From Nymphaea colorata (Eukaryota > Streptophyta > Magnoliopsida > Nymphaeales > Nymphaeaceae), in the NCBI RefSeq assembly GCF_008831285.2, contig NC_045139.1, forward strand, positions 19,858,892 to 19,922,891: a stretch of 64,000 bases of DNA, in the 5' to 3' direction. The position numbers and the translations under genes are program-made. Every line of letters begins with the position of its first letter. Position 1 is the first letter of the stretch. Positions 12,130 to 40,479 of the stretch are shown here, piece after piece. The notes under the pieces are model-generated. The model saw only the letters and a program-made list of their open reading frames with translations, was not told where the DNA came from and searched no databases.

Positions 12130-12721
12130 TCAAGCAGGTGTGTAAAGATTGACGACACCATGTTTGAACAATAAATGATAAAAACCTTCTTTTCCTAATG
12201 TTTTACTTAATAAGTCTGCTAGTTGGTCTTTGCTTCGAATGTAGCATGTGTGTATCGTCCCCTGAAGATACGGGAACTGGCTCAAGAAATACGTAATAAC
12301 CAATGACAGATCGTTGCGTTTGACGACAGGTAGCCCAATTTGAATCACAAAATGCACTTAACTGCATATTATTCTCTTTACTCATTAAAATGCCTTGGCC
12401 TGAATTCTTCTTGAGATATCGAATCACTCGCAATGCCGCTTGTAGGTGAGGTATGCGTGGTTGTTGCATAAACTTGCTTAGGACGTGCACAGTGTATTGT
12501 ATATCTGGGCGTGTAATGCTGAGATAGATTAGTCTTCCAATAAGCTGCTGATATTGTGTTGGGTCCTTGATGTAGTCTCCATGATCTTCATCCAACCCAT
12601 GCTTTTGTTCCATTGGCGTTTCTACTGGTTTTGCTCTCAAGGGACTTGTTTCATGAATAATATCTAGAGCATATTTTTTGTTGTGAGAGATATATACCTT
12701 TTGAAGAATGAGCAATTTCAA
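12130..12721 (-). pseudogene. copia relic 1: RT C-terminus and RNase H
   Basis: Frames at 12,203-12,721 and 12,130-12,357 together cover the RT thumb ('TRPDIQYTVHVLSKFM'), the RNase H start ('AFCDSNWATC', where the family usually has SDADWA) and the tail 'SKDQLADLLSKTLG', which is the standard copia C-terminus. A frameshift separates the two pieces, and the usual EAEYRA segment between them is scrambled. The product would be inactive. It sits immediately upstream (in element orientation) of the purine tract and 3' LTR. Confidence 0.8.
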
Positions 12722-13400
12722 TTCCCAAAAAAATATTTAGGTTTGCCTAAATACTTCATGTGAAACTTTTTACATAGAAATGATTTGAAGTTATCAATTT
12801 CGTCCTTTACATTTCCTATAATTATCAAGTCATCAACGTGTACCAGAATGACAAGAAAGATTTTATCATGCTTAAATGTGAATAAAGAGTGATCAACTTT
12901 AGATTGCATAAATCTATAATCTTTGGGAGCAGTTGAAAGCTTATAAAACCAATTTTCTTGAAGATTGTTTTAAACCGTAAAGAGATTTATGTAATTTACA
13001 TACATGATTCTCCTCTTGTTTGACATACCCTTGAGGTATTTGAATGTAGACATCCTCATGCAGGTCGCCATGTAGAAAAGCATTATTGACATCCATTTGG
13101 CACATGATCCAAATTTGATTAGCTGCTATAGTAAAAAGAGTATGTACCGTGACCATTTTTGCGATAGAAGCAAATGTTTCATTATAGTCCAATCCCTCTT
13201 GTTCAGTGTATCCTTTGGCCACCAGCCTAGCTTTGTAACATTCTATGGATCCATCTTATTTTAATTTAATCTTATAAACTCATTTGCACCTGATTGGCTT
13301 CGCCTCTATTGGAAGTGATGTAATAGTCCAAGTCTTGTTTTCTTGTAAGGCACGAATCTCGCTATCCATGGCGTCTATCCATTCTTTATGTTGGGCTGCT
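12718..13400 (-). pseudogene. copia relic 1: reverse transcriptase (RVT_2)
   Basis: The minus strand encodes the RVT_2 start ('EWIDAMDSEIRALQENKTW', near 13,390), then '[17 protein letters not shown]', '[17 protein letters not shown]' and 'KSLYGLKQS'. The catalytic box reads HVDD instead of YVDD ('LVHVDDLIIIGN'). Stops and shifts near 12,915-12,970 and 13,250-13,280 break the frame. It copied element RNA to DNA in its intact ancestor; this copy cannot. Confidence 0.85.
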
Positions 13401-13573
13401 TTTTCAAAGGTTTTCGGCACAGACTTGAAAACGAGAGATGGGAGAAAAGCAAAATGATTACTAGAGAAGTGATGAAAGGAAATAAAATCTCTTATAAGAT
13501 ACCTCGTTCCTTTTTGCTGATTTAGAGATGTGGTTGGTTGAGGGTGAGGTAAGAAGTGAACATTGGAAATCTT

Positions 13574-13882
13574 TTAACATACCGTAGGTTTTCTTACATG
13601 AGTAGATCTTCTAAGTGGATCTGGATCTAGATCTGGATCAAACAAGGATAGGTTGGGTTCATTTGTATCTAAGCGCTCCTCATCTGTTTGATCGACTTGT
13701 ACATGTCGTTCTTGTGTGGAAGGAGAAATATTGGTTCCTAGGTCAATATGTTCTAGATTTATGTAGGTAGTAAGAGATCTTTCATTCTTCATACCTTGTG
13801 TGGGATAAATATCTAGATCATACGAAATGGGTAAAACAATACCTTTTTCATTTTTTATTTTGAAAAGAAAAAATACTTTCAT
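13574..13882 (-). pseudogene. copia relic 1: integrase-RT linker
   Basis: An open stretch of 102 codons on the minus strand, acidic and proline/aspartate-rich, ends in 'RRSTHVRKPTV'. This is the typical R-R-S-x-R-x-R-K-P motif that precedes the reverse transcriptase domain in plant copia polyproteins. Its position between the integrase and RT pieces fits. No enzymatic domain is expected. Confidence 0.7.
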
Positions 13883-13888
13883 GAAAGA

Positions 13889-14899
13889 TTACATCGCGAC
13901 TAACAAGCACCTTATATCTCTCAAGATCATACAATTTATAGGCTTTTTGTCCTTCAGGGTATCCAATAAAAATGCACTTAGTCGCTCTAGAATCAAATTT
14001 GTCTTTATTTTGGCATGTGTTTGTGGCATAACATCATGATTCAAAAACTCTAAGATGTTTGATGTTTGGCTTTTTTCCAAATAATATTTCAAAAGGGGAC
14101 TTTTCATTAAGTTTTGATGATGGTATGTGATTTATTAGATAGGAGGCTGTCAAAACGTATTCACCCAAAAAATGCAAAGGTAAATTAGATTCAAAACGTA
14201 AGGCCCTTACAACTTCAAGAAGATGGCAGTGTTTACATTCCACTATGCCATTTTGTTGTGGAGTAGCCACACAACTATGTTGATGAGTGGTACCTTATTT
14301 TTGTAAAAAAAATTTTCATTTCATATGAAAAAAATTCAGTCCCATTATCCGTTTGCAAAGATTTAATTTGACAATTAAATTGTGTTTTAATCAAAGCAAA
14401 AAAAAAATTGATAAGATGTAATGTTTCATATTTATGCCGCATTAAGAAAATCCAAGTAGCACGAGAGTAAGCATCTACAACGCTAAGAAAATAATGTGCA
14501 CCAGAAATAATGGATTGAGCATAAAGACCCCAAATATCACAATAATTAAATCAAAAGGATGCACAGTAGATATTTCACTTAAACCAAACTTAAGTCGAGT
14601 TTGTTTTGCTCGATGGCAAGCATCATAAACATAATCATCATTAAAGTCAAAGTTTAAATTTAAATAATTGTTCATTAGCTTTAAGCGAGAATGCGAAAGG
14701 TGACCTAATCTTTTATGCCAAAGTTCATGAGTAGAAACGGCATGACAAGGTTGAACACATGGTGGTCTTTGTTGAAGAACATATAGTCTGCCTTTCATCT
14801 CACCCTACTCAATCGTCATCTTTGATTCCAGGTCCTGAATAATACAACGATCAGGTAAAAAGGTTATGGAACAATTTAAATTTTTAGTTAGTTCGCTAA
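13889..14899 (-). pseudogene. copia relic 1: pre-integrase zinc motif and integrase
   Basis: Minus-strand pieces at 14,475-14,798 (pre-integrase: 'LWHKRLGHLSHSRLKLM'), 14,034-14,270 (integrase core around 'TPQQNGIVE', which supplies the last acidic residue of DDE) and 13,889-14,107 (C-terminal part, shifted) cover the domain. The middle of the core, including the second Asp, is broken by stops around 14,290-14,470. The pre-integrase frame continues up to the MITE at 14,900 ('LTKNLNCSITFLPDRC') and joins in frame with 'PTPSLLSVS' on its other side. Confidence 0.8.
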
Positions 14900-15136
14900 G
14901 GGCCCGTTTGATGGGCAGGAAATTTACTGTAGCAAAGGGAATTTATTTCAAATTTTTAAAAATTTTTCCAATTCATCAAACATGGAAAAAAATTTTGGAC
15001 CGTTGGAGGTGATTCTGGAAATATATTTCCAGAAAAATTTTTCCAGCCAGAGGGGTGGAAAATTTTTTCCAGAAATTCTTTTTTTTACCGTTGGAGGAAG
15101 GAGGAAGAATAGACGGGGAGGAAGAAGAAGGGAAGA

Positions 15137-15751
15137 ATGGAAGGAGAAGAACGGAGGAAGGGAAGGGGGAGGAGGAAGAAGGGAAGGAAGGAGAAGGGAA
15201 AGAGGGTAGAGGAAGAAGGGAAGGGAGGCGGAGGAAGAGGGAGGAGAAAGGGAAAGGAGGCGGAGGAAGAGGAAGAGGGAGGAGGAAGGGAAAGGAGGCG
15301 GAGGAAGAAGGGAAGGGAGGGCGGAGGAAGAGGGAGGAGGAAGAAGGGAAGGGAGGGGGAGAGGAAGGAAGCCGAGCCACCGACGGTCCTGGACAAGAAG
15401 GAGGGCTCAGCGACCGGCGAGACACTAGCCGGCGTCCTGGAGGAGATCCGCATGATCAAGTGGCCGGATTTCGGGAAGGTCCTCGGCAAAACGGGGGTTG
15501 TCCTGTCGGTCATCGCCGGGTCCTCCGTCGTTCTCCTCACCGTCAACGCCGTCTTTGCTGAGCTTTCCAGTGACTTCCTCCCCCCTCCTTCCCTTCCTCC
15601 TCCTCACTCCCTTCCCTTCCCTTCTTCCTCCTCCTCCCTTCCCTTCCCTTCCCTTCCCTTCCCTTCTTCCTCCTCCTCATTCCCTTCCCTTCCCTTCTTC
15701 CATTTCCACCAAACAACAAAATTTCGTTCCAGAAAAATATTTCCAACTTAA
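15137..15751 (+). CDS. Chimeric open frame around the SecE fragment
   Basis: One uninterrupted frame of 204 codons starts with ATG in the purine-rich arm. It gives about 80 residues dominated by Glu, Lys, Arg and Gly, crosses the whole SecE-derived segment in its correct frame (residues about 81-145), and ends in about 60 residues rich in Ser, Pro, Leu and Phe from the pyrimidine arm. Low-complexity arms of this kind easily stay open by chance, so the frame alone does not prove expression. That the captured exon is undamaged and in the sense frame is notable. I see no promoter. Expression is unknown. Confidence 0.35.
   Translation: MEGEERRKGRGRRKKGRKEKGKRVEEEGKGGGGRGRRKGKEAEEEEEGGGRERRRRKKGREGGGRGRRKKGREGERKEAEPPTVLDKKEGSATGETLAGVLEEIRMIKWPDFGKVLGKTGVVLSVIAGSSVVLLTVNAVFAELSSDFLPPPSLPPPHSLPFPSSSSSLPFPSLPFPSSSSSFPSLPFFHFHQTTKFRSRKIFPT
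15377..15571 (+). pseudogene. SECE1: Captured fragment of plastid SecE (SECE1)
   Basis: About 65 codons match the core of plant SecE, the small subunit of the thylakoid Sec translocase (SCY1/SECE1). A short amphipathic stretch 'LEEIRMIKWPDFGKVLGKTG' is followed by the single membrane span 'VVLSVIAGSSVVLLTVNAVF' and then 'AELS'. In the family the protein continues for a short C-terminal tail (after 'AELSD'); here it runs straight into pyrimidine-rich MITE sequence, and the transit peptide end is replaced by the purine arm. No stop or frameshift lies inside the fragment. The G+C content is much higher than in the surrounding DNA. A complete SecE gene must exist elsewhere in the genome. Confidence 0.85.
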
Positions 15752-15866
15752 CAAACACAAACACAAGGTGGTTTTGGAATGTGGAATTTTATTTCCTATT
15801 CCTTAATTCCAAAAATATATTTCTGAAAATTTTTTTCAGTTTCCATATTTCCAACCATCAGGCCCC

Positions 15867-16312
15867 TAACTGAAAGTAAAGATGGTGTTGGGATATGGCG
15901 TTAAAGTACACTGCGTTGCCAGCGGCTAGCTATTTAAGATGGTGCTGGGATATGGCGTTAAAGATAGAACCGCATTATCAATTCTATCTGTAATGGAACA
16001 ATGCAGTTCTTGCAGTATTTAGGAAACGACCGGACACTTTTCAGCCATTTAGCATCCTGTTCTGATCATACCAGTGCCTAAATGCAAGGGCAGCCTTTTC
16101 CAGCACAAAATCATGCTTCATGTAGTGTTTCGGAAGGTTCAGTACATCGTTCATGATGCCAAATTTTGCCAACGATGACGTTCATTACAATGGCCTATGT
16201 ATGTAAGAGAAGTTTTTCCAAAAAAAAAAAAAAAAATTGTTAATGGTGAACGATTATGTGAAACAACAGTGTTAATAGTGGGAAGTATCTCAAACTCACT
16301 ACCTATACCGAG
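15867..16312. other. Copia relic 1 remnant and unassigned DNA with a direct repeat
   Basis: 15,867-15,906 still belongs to copia relic 1. A 28-bp segment (15,879-15,906) recurs with one change at 15,936-15,963. Beyond this I recognise nothing up to the next LTR. Confidence 0.5.
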
Positions 16313-16625
16313 TGATAATGGAAAGCAGCTCATGCAGATAATGCAAGATAAAAATTCAGTATCTTATGCAGCACAAAATCAGGCAACAATAGGGCAAGGA
16401 GCGATAATAAATGAAACAGATCTGGCGCAAGGATGCACGCAACAAGAAATCAAGAAAGAAAATTATTCTGATAAGGTTGAAAAGAATTTGAATTTTAAAT
16501 CTCGTAACTGACCTATAAAATCTGATATCATGAGAGGAAACTCATCATTGTTTTGATGAATGAGCACCGTGGATGTAGCATACATTCCAAACCACGTTAA
16601 CATTTTTTGTTTCGTCTTCTTTTCA
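16313..16625 (+). repeat. 5' LTR of copia element 2
   Basis: Begins TGATAATGGAAAGCAGCTC and ends TTTTCA. It aligns along its whole length with 18,399-18,704, with several dozen substitutions and small indels by eye, so this is an old insertion. It is followed directly by a primer-binding site. Confidence 0.9.
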
Positions 16626-17340: not shown

Positions 17341-17541
17341 AATAACAAGATTAATATCCCTAGTTGCGTTTCTTACACAGCGGACTGGAAATCAGAACAA
17401 TAAAGGATGCTACAACAATTATAATAGGCACACAACAATAATCGCTTCAACTGTAGGGGGAGGCATTTTACTCCTGCCACTTAGCTTCGGGAGAATCAAG
17501 GCGAATCAAATGGAGCTGCAACAAATAAAACTAAGGTACCG

Positions 17542-17862
17542 TGCCAAATATGTGGTTTGAGTAACTATATTGCCCTCAAATGCTATCACTGGTTTGATCA
17601 GTCATATCAACCACGGGATATTCCACAAGCCTTTGCTACTCTCAAGGTTTCCAATCCAACGGATCAAGAGTGGTACTCCGATACCGATGCAACATCACAT
17701 GTCACCGACAGCCCAGGTAATCTTCGAAACTGCATTGAATATAAAGGATCTAACAAAATCATGGTGGGTAACGGTGATAAGTTGACCATTACTCATGTTG
17801 GAACAGCTGATATAAATGTTGGATCTAAGACTCTTTCTGCAGACAACATATTAGTTATTTCC
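17542..17862 (+). pseudogene. copia element 2: zinc knuckle and protease
   Basis: One frame encodes a CCHC-type knuckle whose histidine is replaced ('CQICGLSNYIALKC') and a protease start 'WYSDTDATSHVTD'. The aspartic protease box is normally D-T/S-G-A; here Gly is replaced by Asp. The text then stops abruptly at 'LSADNILVIS' and continues as the end of reverse transcriptase, marking the internal deletion. Confidence 0.8.
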
Positions 17863-18390
17863 ATGGAACAACTCATTATGGCATGTTTTATTCAAAAAGT
17901 CAACTATGCATCGGGCTCATTCTGATGCTTGGGCTGGCTGCCCAGACACTCGATGGTACACATCCGGTTATTGCATCTTCCTTGGACTAAACTATTTCTT
18001 GGAGTGCCAAGAAACAGCCTACAGTGGCTCGTTCATTCTGCGAGGCTGAATATCGTGCACTTGTTTGCTGCCACAGCTGCGCTAACCTAGGTCACTTTTA
18101 TATTTAAAGATAATGAGACTTTTCTACCTAGACCACCAATTCTTCTTTGTGACAATATTTCAGCATTGCAAACATCTAATAAGCCAACTCAAGGATGAAA
18201 CACCTAGAGTTGGATTATCACTTTGTGCGTGAAAAGGTGGCACTTGGCTAGTTGGCTCTCTTGAGACTCGATACATTTCCATTTTCCACTTAGGACCAGC
18301 TGGCAGACTTGTTAACCAACTCTCTTTTCCATGGACGTCTTACATATCTTCTGGGCAAGCTTGGGCTTCGCTCACTCCCAGCCAGTGATT
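17863..18390 (+). pseudogene. copia element 2: RT end and RNase H
   Basis: Right after the deletion junction the frame reads 'GTTHYGMF', the end of the RT region. With frame changes it continues to 'AHSDAWAGCPDTRW', 'SAKKQPTVARSFCEAEYRAL' and 'LLCDNISAL', all standard copia RNase H segments. The first catalytic acid lies in 'SDAWAG' (usually SDADWAG). Several stops occur. Confidence 0.8.
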
Positions 18391-18398: not shown

Positions 18399-18704
18399 TG
18401 ATAATGGAAAGCAGCTCTTGCAAATAATGCAAGGTAAAGATTCAATATCTTATGCAGCAGAAAATCTCGCAATAGTAAATCAAGGAACGTTAATAAAGGA
18501 AAGGATACACGCAGCAAGAACTCAGGAAGGAAAATTATTCTAATAAGGCTGAAAAGCATTTGAATTTTAAATCTTGTAACTGACAGACCATGTATACAAA
18601 ATCTGATTTCATGAGAGGAAACTCACCATCGTTTTGATGAATGAGCACCATGGATGTAGGACACATTCCAAACCACGTTAAACTTTTTTCTCATTTTCTT
18701 TTCA
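18399..18704 (+). repeat. 3' LTR of copia element 2
   Basis: Begins TGATAATGG after the polypurine tract and ends TTTTCA. It aligns with 16,313-16,625 but has its own small insertion near 18,590 and a deletion near 18,508. Confidence 0.9.
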
Positions 18705-28381: not shown

Positions 28382-28664
28382 GGGGGTGTTTGGATGACAC
28401 TTCAAAACCAGGTTTTTTGTATGCAAAACTTGGTTTTACCTACAAAACCAGGTTTGTGAAGTGTTTGGGCGCCATCCAATCTGGATAATTTCTCAGTTGT
28501 AACAAAACCTGGTTTTATAAATGAGTTATTTGAAAAACCAGGTTTTCGATGTATCACCCAAACAAAAAAACTAACTTCTTAAAACTCATTAAAAAATTTG
28601 TTTTTCATAAAACCTAGTTTTGGCAAAACTGAGTTAGAGAGGATGGTGTCATCCAAACGGCCCC
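28382..28664. mobile_element. Tourist-like MITE with repeated palindromes
   Basis: Ends GGGGGTGTTTGGATGACAC and, inverted, GGGGCCGTTTGGATGACAC: 19-bp inverted repeats with two mismatches. Flanks TAA and TCA may be a mutated 3-bp duplication. The inside holds five variants of the palindrome AAAACC(A/T)GGTTTT. The length of 283 bp and the GGGG..GTTTGG termini fit a Tourist/PIF-Harbinger MITE; an hAT relative is less likely given the flanks. Confidence 0.75.
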
Positions 28665-35519: not shown

Positions 35520-36245
35520 AAGTCGATATCAAGGGTAAACAAAATGAATGGATTAGCCTTAAAATCCATTCCAAGGTCCCAACTTTGTTGTCTTACAAAA
35601 CTTCTCAACAAACAAAATGAGAATACAAAACAAATAGACAACAAACTTAATGAGAATCAACAAACTGTATGTGATCACATTCATAAATGTTTGCATAATA
35701 GTGTGTTTACATTGAACTACACAAATTCATCCTCTTAACATGTTCAAAAAACATACCAGATGCTAACGCTTTAGTAAGAGGATATGCAACCATATCTGTA
35801 GTCCCAATGTGTTGAATACACACTAGTTGGTTCTCTGTCCTTTCCTTAACAACAAAATACTTAATTTCATATGCTCACAAGAAGTAGTACTTTTGTTGTT
35901 GTTGGAAAAAGACACTGCAGCTTCATTATCATAGTGAACCTTAACTGGTCTATCAATAGATTCCACTATCTTGAGCTGTGAAATGAAATCCTTTATCCAA
36001 ATTGTCTGTGATGTAGTCTCATATAATGCAATGAATTCTGCTTCCATGGTGTGAGCAGCAGTCACAGTTTGCTTTTTGCTCCCCCATGAGATGGCACCTC
36101 CTGAGAGAAGAAAAACAAAACCAGTAGTAGACTTTCTACTATCGATACATCCTCCAAGATCGGCATCAGAATAGCCAATCACTTCTAAATGGTCCACCTT
36201 GCGATATGTCAACATATAATCTTTTGTCCCTTGCAAGTACCGCAT
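35520..36245 (-). pseudogene. copia element 3: RNase H
   Basis: Frame 35,823-36,245 reads 'GYSDADLGGCIDSRKSTTG', 'TAAHTMEAEFIALYE' and 'VHYDNEAAVSFSNN', holding the expected RNase H acidic residues (SDAD, MEAE, YDN). A stop near 35,823 and shifts separate the last segment (about 35,520-35,820), which ends the polyprotein before the purine tract. Confidence 0.85.
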
Positions 36246-37145
36246 GACTCTTTACGGCCTTCCAATGTGCAATGCCTGGATTAAATTGAAATCTACCAAG
36301 CATCCCAACAGCAAAGAAAATGTCAGGCCTAGTGCAAATCTGCGCATACTGCAAGCTGCCAACTGCTGATGCATATGGAATGTTGATCATTTGTGCCTTT
36401 TCAAATTCGTCCTTTGGACAATCATTTAGGCTCAATTTATCCCCTTTAGCTATGGGTACCGAAATAGGAGAACAATTCTTCATCTCATATCTCTTAAGAA
36501 CTTTATTGATGTATGCTCATTGGGAGATACTTAAAACACATTTAGATCTGTCTCGATGAATCTCAATGCCGAGAACAAATGAAGCCTCACCCATGTCCTT
36601 CATCTCAAAATGAGATGCGAGAAAATGTTTGGTTTCAGTTAGCAATTGAATATCATTAGAAGCAAGTAAAATGTCATCCATATAAAGTCAAAATTATGAA
36701 CTTACTCCCACATGTCTTAAGATACACACATCGATCAATGATGTTTTCTGTAAACCCAAAAATCGTAATGACTTCGGAAAACTTAATGTACCATTGACGT
36801 GAGGCATGTTTAAGTCCATAAATCGCTTTATTAGGCTTGCAAACCAAATGATCTTTACCACTCTCAGAAAACCCTTGAGGTTGATCCCTATATATCTCTT
36901 CATCCAAATCACCATTCAAGAAAACCGTTTTCACATCCATCTGATGTAGCTCTAAGTCAAAATGAGCTACAAGTGCAAGGACAATCCTCATTGACTCTTT
37001 AGTAGAGACAAGTGAATATGTGTCATTATAGTCAATGCCCTCCATTTGTGTGAATCCTTTAGCAACCAATCTTGCCTTGTATCTCTCTATGTTGCCTTTA
37101 GAGTCCCTCTTGGTTTTAAAGACCCATTTACACCCTACAGGTTTT
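36166..37145 (-). pseudogene. copia element 3: reverse transcriptase
   Basis: Frame 36,674-37,069 begins 'MVAKGFTQMEGIDYNDTYS' and includes 'MDVKTVFLNGDLDEEIY' and 'KAIYGLKHASRQWY'. It then shifts by one base just before the catalytic YMDD box (near 36,676-36,690), which is legible only in the neighbouring frame. The C-terminal RT text ('ASAVGSLQYAQICTRPDI') follows at 36,166-36,483. The shift inactivates the enzyme. Confidence 0.88.
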
Positions 37146-37147
37146 AC

Positions 37148-37744
37148 TCATTTAAGCAACAACACAAGGCTCCATGTCTGGTTTTTAACCATAGAGTCAA
37201 GCTCTTCTTTCATGGCATTAATCCAGAATCTGTATTGTTTGCTTTCAATGGCTTCATTGAATGTGAAAGGATCATCATCAACATCTATGAAATCATTAGG
37301 CTCTTGTAGGTATACCACATAGTCTGATGATATGGCAGATCTCCTGGCTCTTGCAGATCTACGAACAGGTAATTGATCATTTTCAATTTGTATGTCTACA
37401 TCCTGTTCGTGTTCATCAGTATGATCTACATTTAATTCATCTGGATTTGATGCATTACCTGTATGATCTGCATTCATGTCATCATGAGAGACAACATAAT
37501 CATACACACTTGCATTCTTTTTAGTAGGTCTACTTTCAGTATCCTGTATTTCCTCAAAAATGAGGTTTTGTAATGCATCTAATCCAAATGAGCCATCTTC
37601 CAGGAACTTAGTCTTATCTGTTTCCATAATATGCGGTGTATGAGATGGAAAATAAAACCTATAGCCTTTCGATCTTTCTGGATAACCAATAAAGAAACCA
37701 CTGGTTGTTCTAGGATCAAAGGCTTTTATGTAAGGGTTGTACAA
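37148..37744 (-). pseudogene. copia element 3: integrase C-terminus, linker and RT start
   Basis: Open for 198 codons. It starts in the integrase tail ('DPRTTSGFFIGYPERSKGY'), runs through an acidic linker, reaches 'LPVRRSARARRS', and enters the RT domain at 'AMKEELDSMVKNQTW'. A stop after 'LVLLLK' and an interruption at 37,745-37,893 split it from its neighbours. Confidence 0.85.
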
Positions 37745-37893
37745 CTTAGCTTCAACAGGACATCCTCATATGTGCATATAAGAGAGAGAAGGTTTCCTAC
37801 CTGTCCACAATTCGTAAGGAGTTATGGGAACAAATTTAGTAGGAACCCTATTTTGGATATGCACTACTGTCCTGAGAGCTTCACCCCACAAGG

Positions 37894-39054
37894 TTAGAGA
37901 GAGAGAGTAGAATAATTTAACATAGCTCGAACTATTTCCTTAAGCGTCCGATTTCTCCTTTCAGCCACACCATTTTGGTAGGCACTGCTTGGCATGATGT
38001 ATTGAGGCACAATGTCTTCTTCCTTTAGAAATCGCGCTAATGGTCCCTCCCTTTGTCCCATCTCAGTAAACCTACTATAATATTCACCACCTCTATCTGA
38101 TCTGACTATTTTGATAACCTCATCGGTTTGTTTCTCTACTTCTTTCTTATAGTCTTTGAAAACTTGACACACATCGGATTTTTCAAAGATTAAGTAGAGA
38201 TACAAATACCGAGAATAGTCATCTATAAAGGTGACAAAATACTTTTCGCAAGTGTAACAAGGAGGGAAAGGTCCACAAACATCTGTATGAACAATTCCTA
38301 ACTTTTCAGTACATCGCTCGGCACCTTCTTTATATATGTTAGTTTGCTTTGCCTTTATGCAATCTACACATATGTCTTTATCCGTAAAATCAAGAGATCG
38401 TAAAATCCCTTCATTTAAGAGTCTCCTTATTCTCTTTTCAGAGATATGACCCAAACGACGGTGCCATAGCATGTACGAATCATCCTTTATGGTACTACGC
38501 TTATTGCCACTTATACAATGACTAGAAACCAACAATTCATGAGATTGCATCTTCACATTCAACTTGTATAAATCATCACACAAAATAGCAGAAGCAATTT
38601 CAACAAGATCTTTATAAATCAACATTTTTGAATTTTCAAACTTTAAACAGAAATCAAATTTGTCCAGTCTTGATACAGAAATTAGGTTTCTACTATATGA
38701 TGGAACAAAGAAAACATCATGAAGATCCAAAACAAAGCCAGTATCAAGCCTAATATGGCATTCTCCTACAGCTTTCACATGTGAGCGCATTTTGTTTTCT
38801 GAGAAAATGTTCATCTCACGTAGCGTTGGTTCCCTTTTGCTTAGAAAGTCCTGTAAAGAATTGGCAATATGCAAAGTAGCACCAGAGTCAATCCACCAGC
38901 TATTAATAGGAACATGTAACATATTACTTTCAAGTGAAACAAATGACATGTTACCTTTCTTCTCTAACCAATTCTTGTACTTGATGTAGTCTGACTTCTT
39001 ATATCCATTTTTCTTGCAAAAGAAACACTTTATAGGAGCTAAGTTAGTTTGCAT
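37894..39054 (-). pseudogene. copia element 3: zinc knuckle, protease and integrase
   Basis: A 386-codon open stretch. The knuckle keeps its first two cysteines (CFFC), but the His and last Cys positions are Tyr. Protease box 'WWIDSGATLHIA' is intact. The pre-integrase 'MLWHRRLGHISEKR' supplies zinc ligands with 'CVDCIKAKQ'. The integrase core keeps all three acidic residues: 'VHTDVCGP', 'RSDRGGEYY' and '[14 protein letters not shown]'. It is among the best preserved parts of the element. It normally forms one polyprotein with gag, from which one stop at about 39,072 now separates it. Confidence 0.9.
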
Positions 39055-39069
39055 AATTTGAGAAGCAGT

Positions 39070-39807
39070 TTAACCTGTTGACTTATTTTTGGCGCTCCTT
39101 TTCATTAAATTTTTCTTTATGCCAACTTTACCAGCCCCAGAGTGAGAAACCATATGTGCACTTTGCAACTTCTCACCCTTTATCCTTTCCTTCTCTTCAA
39201 CACACTTAGACATCAATTCATTGAATATCCATTCAGTATTATGTGTGTTGTAACTGATCTTAAAATGAGTGTATTCAGCTGGTAAAGAGGTCAAAATAAA
39301 GAATACCAAGAATGATTTAGAAATAGTCAACTTTATGTCATTCAATTGAGAAGCAATGTTCCTCATTTCTAACAGATGCTGGCGAATGTTACCCCCTCTT
39401 TGATATTTCATAAATATTAATTTTGACATTAAGGTATTAGCTCTAGCTTTATGAGAGCTGACAAACTGAGCCTCAACTGCATCCAAGAACTCTCTCACCG
39501 TTCTACAAGGTGGGATAGCACCACGTATGTTCTTAGCGACCCTTGATTGTAAAAGCAACAAGCTTAGTCGGTTAGAACGCTCCCACTTGTCAAAATATAC
39601 TGTTTCATTATGTGTACTTTGTGGTGTAAGAGGAGGTGGCTCAGGTCGCCTCAAAGCCATATCCAGATTCATATACCCCAATGTAAACACAACATTTTCT
39701 TTCCATTCAACATAATTCGAATCATCAAGTAAATGGATAGAATTTGAGTCATTAAAATAAATAAAACCAGGCACTGCAGATGACAAAAGACATCGATAAG
39801 TTGACAT
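39070..39807 (-). pseudogene. copia element 3: gag (UBN2 family)
   Basis: Begins with ATG at 39,807 and runs 245 codons. It contains 'LLDDSNYVEWKENVVFTLG', 'FDKWERSNRLSLLLL' and 'LMSKLIFMKYQRGGNIRQH', the usual gag/UBN2 text. It ends 'KSAKNKSTG'-like just before the zinc knuckle, at a TAA where intact relatives read through. The frame itself is uninterrupted, so a gag-like protein could still be made. Confidence 0.85.
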
Positions 39808-40479
39808 GCATCATATGAGACAAATCATATGGAACAGTAAACTAAATAAAAGGCTCTTTATGTCTACTATTTCCTAGAGAAATACCCGGGGTCATTAGGA
39901 TACTACTTTGGTAATATACCTAATATGCATATGTATTCCGTCTTAACTTTATCTAGTAAAACTAAGAAATGTAAATCCAAACTATAGTTAAACATAACAC
40001 CTTTGGGTGTAAAATGACAGAACTATGTAAGGATCTATTTTCCTATTTTACTCTACTCATTCTCTTGAACATAACACACTACCTTTGGGTAATTATGTTA
40101 CTTCAAATGAGAATAAATACAACATGAAACACTAATGTGCCTTTCAATCATGCGTAGTTACTTTGGTGAGGTATGACATGATTTAACTAATCATAGGCTC
40201 TTTACATTAGCGTTATCGTACAAACTTTATTATCATACAATAAAACTAACTTTAGCATAATCCTAAACAAAACATGATACAAGAATATGTTATAATAACA
40301 TATATAAAATGAAATACATGAATCACATGAATCATTTTTGCATAATCAACTTAATGCTATCTAAATTGTTCATTAAAGCTCCATAAAACATAATGAATCG
40401 GTCTCGTATCGATCTAAAATGATCGAACCAATCCATTAAATACCTTAAATGGACATACAACCACATATACCAGCTCCCT

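Follow-up and report, generated by a model that had tools for sequence, protein, structure and literature searches.

How transposons with terminal inverted repeats (TIRs) take up unlinked host genes is an unsettled question, and the review PMC13317346 allows that a mechanism yet to be discovered may remain. The question is raised here by positions 14900-15866 of a 64,000-nucleotide stretch of Nymphaea colorata DNA (C2:19858892-19922891, the window), which formed a 967-bp non-autonomous element of PIF/Harbinger type with TAA on either side, lay inside a decayed copia element and carried a piece of the host gene SECE1. It is very probably a Tourist-like PIF/Harbinger element of the Pack-TYPE class. 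Within one genome, its family displayed several captures whose donors are known, whose junctions can be read and whose arms are assignable to subfamilies, so that two-element and repair models of capture can be told apart. Features of the element and its surroundings are collected in Table 1.

Table 1. Features of the SECE1-bearing element and its insertion site (window coordinates)
Feature	Position	Strand	Basis
Decayed copia element interrupted by the insertion	12203..14896	-	GAG-pre-integrase E 3.7e-13; tblastn with the window's other copia
Left target-site copy, TAA	14897..14899	.	Sequence
Non-autonomous PIF/Harbinger-type element with SECE1 fragment, 967 bp	14900..15866	+	Flanking TAA, empty-site frame, termini common to relatives
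Left terminal repeat GGGCCCGTTTGATGG, identical in many relatives	14900..14914	+	Comparison with relatives
A+T-rich left arm, of the L020/L015/L016 subfamily	14900..15095	+	Mean identity 0.913 (15 rows) vs 0.771 (21 L051-subfamily rows); clade support 98/94
Polypurine tract	15096..15350	+	97% purine over 15096-15368; like tract in most two-ended first-batch copies
212-codon open stretch: tract, SECE1 piece, tract	15113..15751	+	ATG at 15137 would give a predicted 204 aa
Captured SECE1 coding fragment, 218 bp	15351..15568	+	Host coding sequence (519 bp), positions 257-474; 9 differences
Purine run native to the SECE1 gene, adjoining the element's purine tract	15351..15371	+	Donor comparison
K-W-P replacing E-W-P	15458..15466	+	Host gene GAG, element AAG
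Polypyrimidine tract, 4.5% purine	15569..15700	+	About 5 bases (AGTGA) at the junction without assignment
A+T-rich right arm, of the L051 subfamily	15701..15866	+	Mean identity 0.880 (21 L051-type rows) vs 0.825 (15 other-subfamily rows); clade support 98/80
Right terminal repeat CCATCAGGCCCC; family's usual form CCATCAAACGGCCCC, hence 3 bp gone	15855..15866	-	Comparison with relatives
Right target-site copy, TAA	15867..15869	.	Sequence

A sequence-only reading of this DNA had held the ends to be defined to the base by a copia frame resuming across the TAA duplication. The boundaries were right, but the frame evidence is thin by itself, since right of the insertion a stop ended the copia frame after just 10 codons, and the other copia proteins of the window, used as tblastn queries, matched no copia there. 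With the element and one TAA removed, the minus-strand frame reads PTPSLLSVSELTKNLNCSITFLPD; so restored, the frame PTPSLLSVSELTKNLNC agreed with VPSYSRNLISVSRLDKF from the second copia of the window, a comparison not significant alone (E 1.4). The stronger proof of the ends, and their main support, lies in the family, whose common termini coincide with 14900-15866. Nesting in a copia element, as that reading proposed, was borne out by the left flank, which was firmly copia on the minus strand according to its GAG-pre-integrase domain in a profile search.

For the SECE1-bearing copy, a duplication of four bps (CTAA, element of 966 bp) fitted equally well, and its relatives point to a length of three bps. 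Its terminal repeat was weak: 115 out of 20000 random 31-mer pairs from the window scored as well and, under another scoring, 1271 out of 2000 shuffles of its first 45 bases were equally good. This weakness is explained by the 3-bp loss at the right end that comparison with relatives uncovered. The preferred target motif of PIF elements is CWCTTAGWG. The insertion site matched it at seven of nine positions, and at least seven were matched at four of 13 TTA/TAA sites of the family, compared with 8.7% of 231 background sites, so that a preference of the family for this motif is only suggestive.

The surroundings displayed further repeats. Directly beside the insertion, a 28-bp sequence occurred twice, 62 bp apart, at 15876-15965. 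Direct repeats at 16313-16608 and 18399-18689 (85-91% identical, ~2.08 kb apart) surrounded a plus-strand copia-like piece at 17485-17922, whose Pol_BBD match was below cut-off; together they probably represent a truncated copia along with its terminal repeats. The minus strand also carried a second and longer copia element at 35823-39810. A search of viral contigs with a copia peptide gave no match. A second MITE-like element at 28382-28664 displayed a 19-bp terminal repeat (GGGGGTGTTTGGATGACAC / GGGGCCGTTTGGATGACAC, 17 out of 19 identical) and differing 3-bp flanks, TAA and TCA.

The element belongs to a dispersed family with common termini. The genome searched comprised 407,766,735 bases in 783 contigs; with the element as query the best 40 of 603 candidates were scored and with the right arm the best 40 of 234, so that counts are lower bounds in both cases. 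Examined loci comprised 38 from the element search (the first batch) and 35 from the right-arm search, plus others picked for their cores. Two first-batch loci dropped out, L039 for want of a right arm and L032 because its right arm was on the wrong strand; among the 36 placed copies, L047 was skipped and six more failed the right-terminus score, which left 29 two-ended copies. In six further loci (L073, L074, L077, L078, L085 and L107) the stretch examined contained no left arm. Termini were thus shared by several copies, as the sequence-only reading had predicted, and not confined to the window; copies without SecE were likewise found, and genome-wide the SecE text occurred in just one copy, besides one gene.

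The usual ends of the family were GGGCCCGTTTGATGG and CCATCAAACGGCCCC, and the 15-base ends matched each other at nine to 14 positions in 28 out of 29 two-ended copies. Identical 3-bp flanks were encountered in 22 of these 29 (seven TTA, six TAA, two CAA, two TCA and five others once each), that is TTA or TAA in 13, and were missing from the other seven; L034/L035 and L028/L033 were pairs with the same flanks, giving an independent count of 21 out of 27. Two-ended first-batch copies were 694 to 1516 bp long, and most displayed the same layout: A+T-rich arm, purine tract, core, pyrimidine tract and A+T-rich arm. L015 and L017 had no clear pyrimidine tract; in L049 purines passed straight into pyrimidines, and nearly so in L040. 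Other copies contained common short cores of ~19-43 bp and some had long cores. A 314-bp core common to the L027/L028/L029/L033/L036 group was present at eight genomic places, L028:581-894 being one of them; no right arm was found in L108 and L109, looked at for this core. The subfamily with this core (L028:581-894 and the seven other places) displayed altered left ends, GGGGGCGTTTGG. L075, L076, L082 and L083 of the second batch had another interior, devoid of tracts. Together with L116-L120 they displayed arms of the family and no purine or pyrimidine tracts inside, and five of these nine contained a 206-bp HemK piece. On the small contig C279, the four copies L081, L093, L102 and L103 displayed the same flanks ~10 kb apart, which makes them a tandem duplication of a larger unit including the element.

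The captured fragment matched one other genomic place, the SECE1 gene on C13 (209 of 218 bases identical), and whole-genome DNA and protein searches located SecE text at exactly these two places. The C13 locus was an uninterrupted open frame of 172 codons (start codon chosen by us) with the tail AELSDRVFAGKGVQDFFG; Arabidopsis SECE1 also has no introns, according to PMC6857650. In that description SECE1 has a 15-residue signature whose last residues, E-W-P, are stated to be invariant, besides a membrane span and a tail of 18 residues containing R-V-F, or T-V-F in Zea. The captured stretch started at 15351, ahead of recognisable SecE residues, and spanned the signature, the membrane span and the first tail residues; the transit peptide and the bulk of the tail were missing. 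The published Arabidopsis SECE1 span matched the piece at 19 of 24 residues (none out of 2000 shuffles as good) and the SECE2 span did not (178 out of 2000 as good), which identifies the thylakoid form. The earlier assignment to SecE of the thylakoid translocase was thereby confirmed, the parent gene being now located as well; the fragment is no part of a complete local gene; its parent lies on another chromosome-sized contig with different flanks.

That reading had also called the piece undamaged and in sense frame. It was in sense and its frame was open, but three residues were replaced. Among 72 whole codons compared with the donor, five changes were silent and three were replacements (E122K, E125D and T132K), one of which turned the E of the E-W-P motif into K. 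Four of the nine differing bases altered the protein, which fits a neutral copy (P 0.31), strong constraint being also compatible in what is a weak test (P 0.11). SecE peptide searches gave no match in viral contigs and two loci, in Clostridia bins, among prokaryote genomes. No SecE capture by a transposon was found in the open-licence literature.

Three other host genes were encountered in the family. L016 contained an antisense histone H4 piece (E 2.1e-47 to a solved H4) with its donor at C4:27163057-27163291 (97%). H4 was present at four element places, one with 89 bp only; all four left flanks were different, and the piece can have spread by transposition, with four insertions. L034 contained an antisense NF-YB piece (E 1.4e-11; donor C8:7350523-7351119) composed of two donor pieces that skip 279 bp of the gene and overlap by 6 bases, CTGCAC. 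The four NF-YB places shared one left flank (96.6-100% over 118-140 bp), which makes them one insertion duplicated in the genome or the assembly; nothing observed thus indicates a spread of NF-YB by transposition. The right ends of L030 and L032 lay beyond the examined stretch. Beside part of H4, L023 contained at 658-980 a second captured segment matching C2:23306913-23307303, again in two pieces with a 6-base overlap. A HemK/PrmC-family piece was found in L079 and seven others, that is at eight places, or seven by flank since L079 and L121 share theirs; its donor was C11:8682011-8682317. The fragment had no match in Pfam, and its name rests on the donor frame (TIGR00536, E 2.5e-22, below the model cut-off, partial protein). 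The donor stretch displayed no family arm, and the seven carriers besides L079 matched both arms.

The SECE1, H4 and NF-YB pieces were located between the purine and the pyrimidine tract. Five of the eight HemK carriers (L116-L120) had no purine tract and L115 had no pyrimidine tract, so that the HemK capture is not tied to the tract apex. SECE1 alone of the four captures ran in the left-to-right sense of the element, H4, NF-YB and HemK being antisense. Among 73 loci examined regardless of core, eight carried one of the four fragments (7/38 and 1/35); these represented five distinct insertions, the window copy being extra.

As to the route of capture, the arms of the SECE1-bearing copy were informative. 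Their likeness to each other was no better than chance (86 out of 1000 shuffles as good), with a same-strand score above the reverse-complement score, a difference expected if this copy is a hybrid. Arm trees contained 54 rows each, several of them duplicated loci; L019, whose first 30 bases are missing, was excluded from these and the earlier trees, and L075, L082, L083, L094, L100 and L106 were excluded from both these trees and from an earlier left-arm tree. The left arm fell within the L020/L015/L016 group (15 copies) and the right arm within the L051 group (21 copies; supports in Table 1). Left-arm data rejected grouping with L051 (p-AU 0.00015) and right-arm data rejected grouping with L020/L015/L016 (p-AU 2e-7), both values being weakened by our having named the groups with earlier trees already in view. 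In an earlier right-arm tree, the SECE1-bearing copy was by path about as near L085 as L090. The trees indicate that its arms come from two different subfamilies. Such differing arms fit the two-element hybrid model of Pack-TYPE capture, without proving it. By tree inspection, hybrid arms were also present in copies with no identified capture, such as L014, so that hybridity is not specific to capture.

We tentatively favour, at just short of an even chance, capture of SECE1 by such a hybrid route. A non-autonomous transposon very probably acquired 218 bp of host SECE1 coding sequence and inserted into the decayed copia element, duplicating TAA. On the favoured route, two elements of different subfamilies would have been joined on either side of donor DNA, the breakpoints presumably falling within short runs of purines and pyrimidines, and the product would have been moved by a PIF/Harbinger transposase made elsewhere.

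The best-surviving alternative, aberrant gap repair or template switching, is a serious one, held at a little less confidence: a break in an existing element would have been filled by synthesis that copied SECE1 from C13 and left the donor intact. Intact the donor is, and within ~12 kb on each side no family copy was detected, barring a 34-bp arm match (L060:3748-3781, 88%, E 7.5e-7), nor was one detected within ~10 kb on each side of the NF-YB donor. For both SECE1 and H4, the left donor-side breakpoint fell in a purine run and the right one in a short pyrimidine run, each beside a tract of matching composition; junctions between two donor pieces, in NF-YB and within the C2 segment of L023, displayed 6-base overlaps. 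However, the NF-YB donor displayed no such run at either breakpoint, and repair within one element leaves arms from different subfamilies unexplained. Hybrid formation was ranked slightly above repair synthesis, and both can act together.

A broader proposal makes the purine/pyrimidine apex a standing capture site, at which breaks or fusions between subfamilies would be joined through the runs and host coding DNA taken up repeatedly. We consider it unlikely, its standing being lowered because most HemK carriers were devoid of tracts and the NF-YB copies represented one duplicated insertion. On this view, DNA captured at the apex (SECE1, H4, NF-YB) could afterwards spread by transposition, as with H4.

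Membership of another superfamily (hAT, Mutator, CACTA or Helitron) is very unlikely. The terminal repeat of the SECE1-bearing copy is degenerate, failing against shuffles when taken alone, and seven two-ended copies have no identical flank. Against this stand the 3-bp duplications, TTA or TAA in 13 out of 29 copies and TAA in the window, the short terminal inverted repeats common to the family and the ends GGGCC...GGCCCC. An assignment to hAT was rejected as no 8-bp duplication was present (TTCGCTAA before the element, TAACTGAA after), and one to CACTA as the ends are not CACTA; passages of PMC8903248 give duplications of eight nt for hAT and five nt for CACTA. Captured coding sequence in a TIR element with its donor elsewhere (SECE1 on C13, besides three other donors), in a family whose several elements share their ends, agrees with the Pack-TYPE designation. 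MITEs are commonly shorter than ~600-800 bp, non-coding and high in copy number. The element had been labelled a MITE; its family is dispersed in many copies, but copies of ~0.7-1.5 kb are long for a MITE and 'Pack-TYPE PIF element' is the better name.

Equally improbable is a function of the chimeric frame at 15137-15751, whether as a new gene or in the regulation of SECE1. The frame is open through the whole purine-SECE1-pyrimidine stretch, and SECE1 is the only one of the four captures in the sense direction. Pure purine and pyrimidine tracts seldom carry stop codons, however, so that an open frame around the piece means little, and one minus-strand frame was likewise open across it. The strong predicted fold of the element (z -12.7, 20 shuffles) was set aside as RNA evidence because the tracts are complementary (none out of 500 shuffles as complementary), which explains it. 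As E-W-P is changed to K-W-P, the targeting part and most of the tail are missing and the piece exists in a single copy in the genome, the SECE1 fragment is most likely a neutral passenger; at most, it could give rise to small RNA that targets SECE1. For annotation, captured frames of this kind may stay open and be called genes.

That the SecE-like text reflects chance or contamination, for which one could cite profile scores below curated cut-offs (PF00584 E 0.0015, TIGR00964 E 2.2e-5; the full host gene also scores below both), is refuted by the donor gene, which the same assembly places on a chromosome-sized contig; the shuffles of the published span also speak against it.

The window element adds to the known Pack-TYPE PIF kind, and three host genes at one purine/pyrimidine apex are a variant worth describing; a search of the open-licence literature for polypurine tracts together with MITE capture gave nothing relevant. 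Tourist-like MITEs display GGGCC... ends, a TWA duplication and many copies. The Nymphaea colorata family resembles them in all three respects and differs in being longer than most and in its tracts and captured coding DNA. Pack-TYPE PIF/Harbinger elements are known in rice and maize, where, according to passages of PMC8903248, they likewise display terminal repeats, 3-bp duplications that are mostly TTA or TAA, captured coding DNA and several copies. The host differs, and capture at a purine-pyrimidine apex, as for SECE1, H4 and NF-YB, is a feature not mentioned in those passages. PIF elements with transduplicated genes are also known in grapevine, where PMC2528002 describes Pifvine-3 as sharing the superfamily, pieces of host genes in several copies and a 3-bp duplication; Pifvine-3 is 5.8-6.7 kb long with transposase genes, in contrast to the ~0.7-1.5 kb of the copies described here. 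In the Pack-CACTA hybrid model, as set out in portions of PMC13317346 and discussed in PMC8903248, two related elements give one end each. Pack-CACTA hybrids belong to another superfamily, and no neighbouring element pair was seen at the SECE1 or NF-YB donor; the SECE1-bearing copy likewise combines the arms of two subfamilies.
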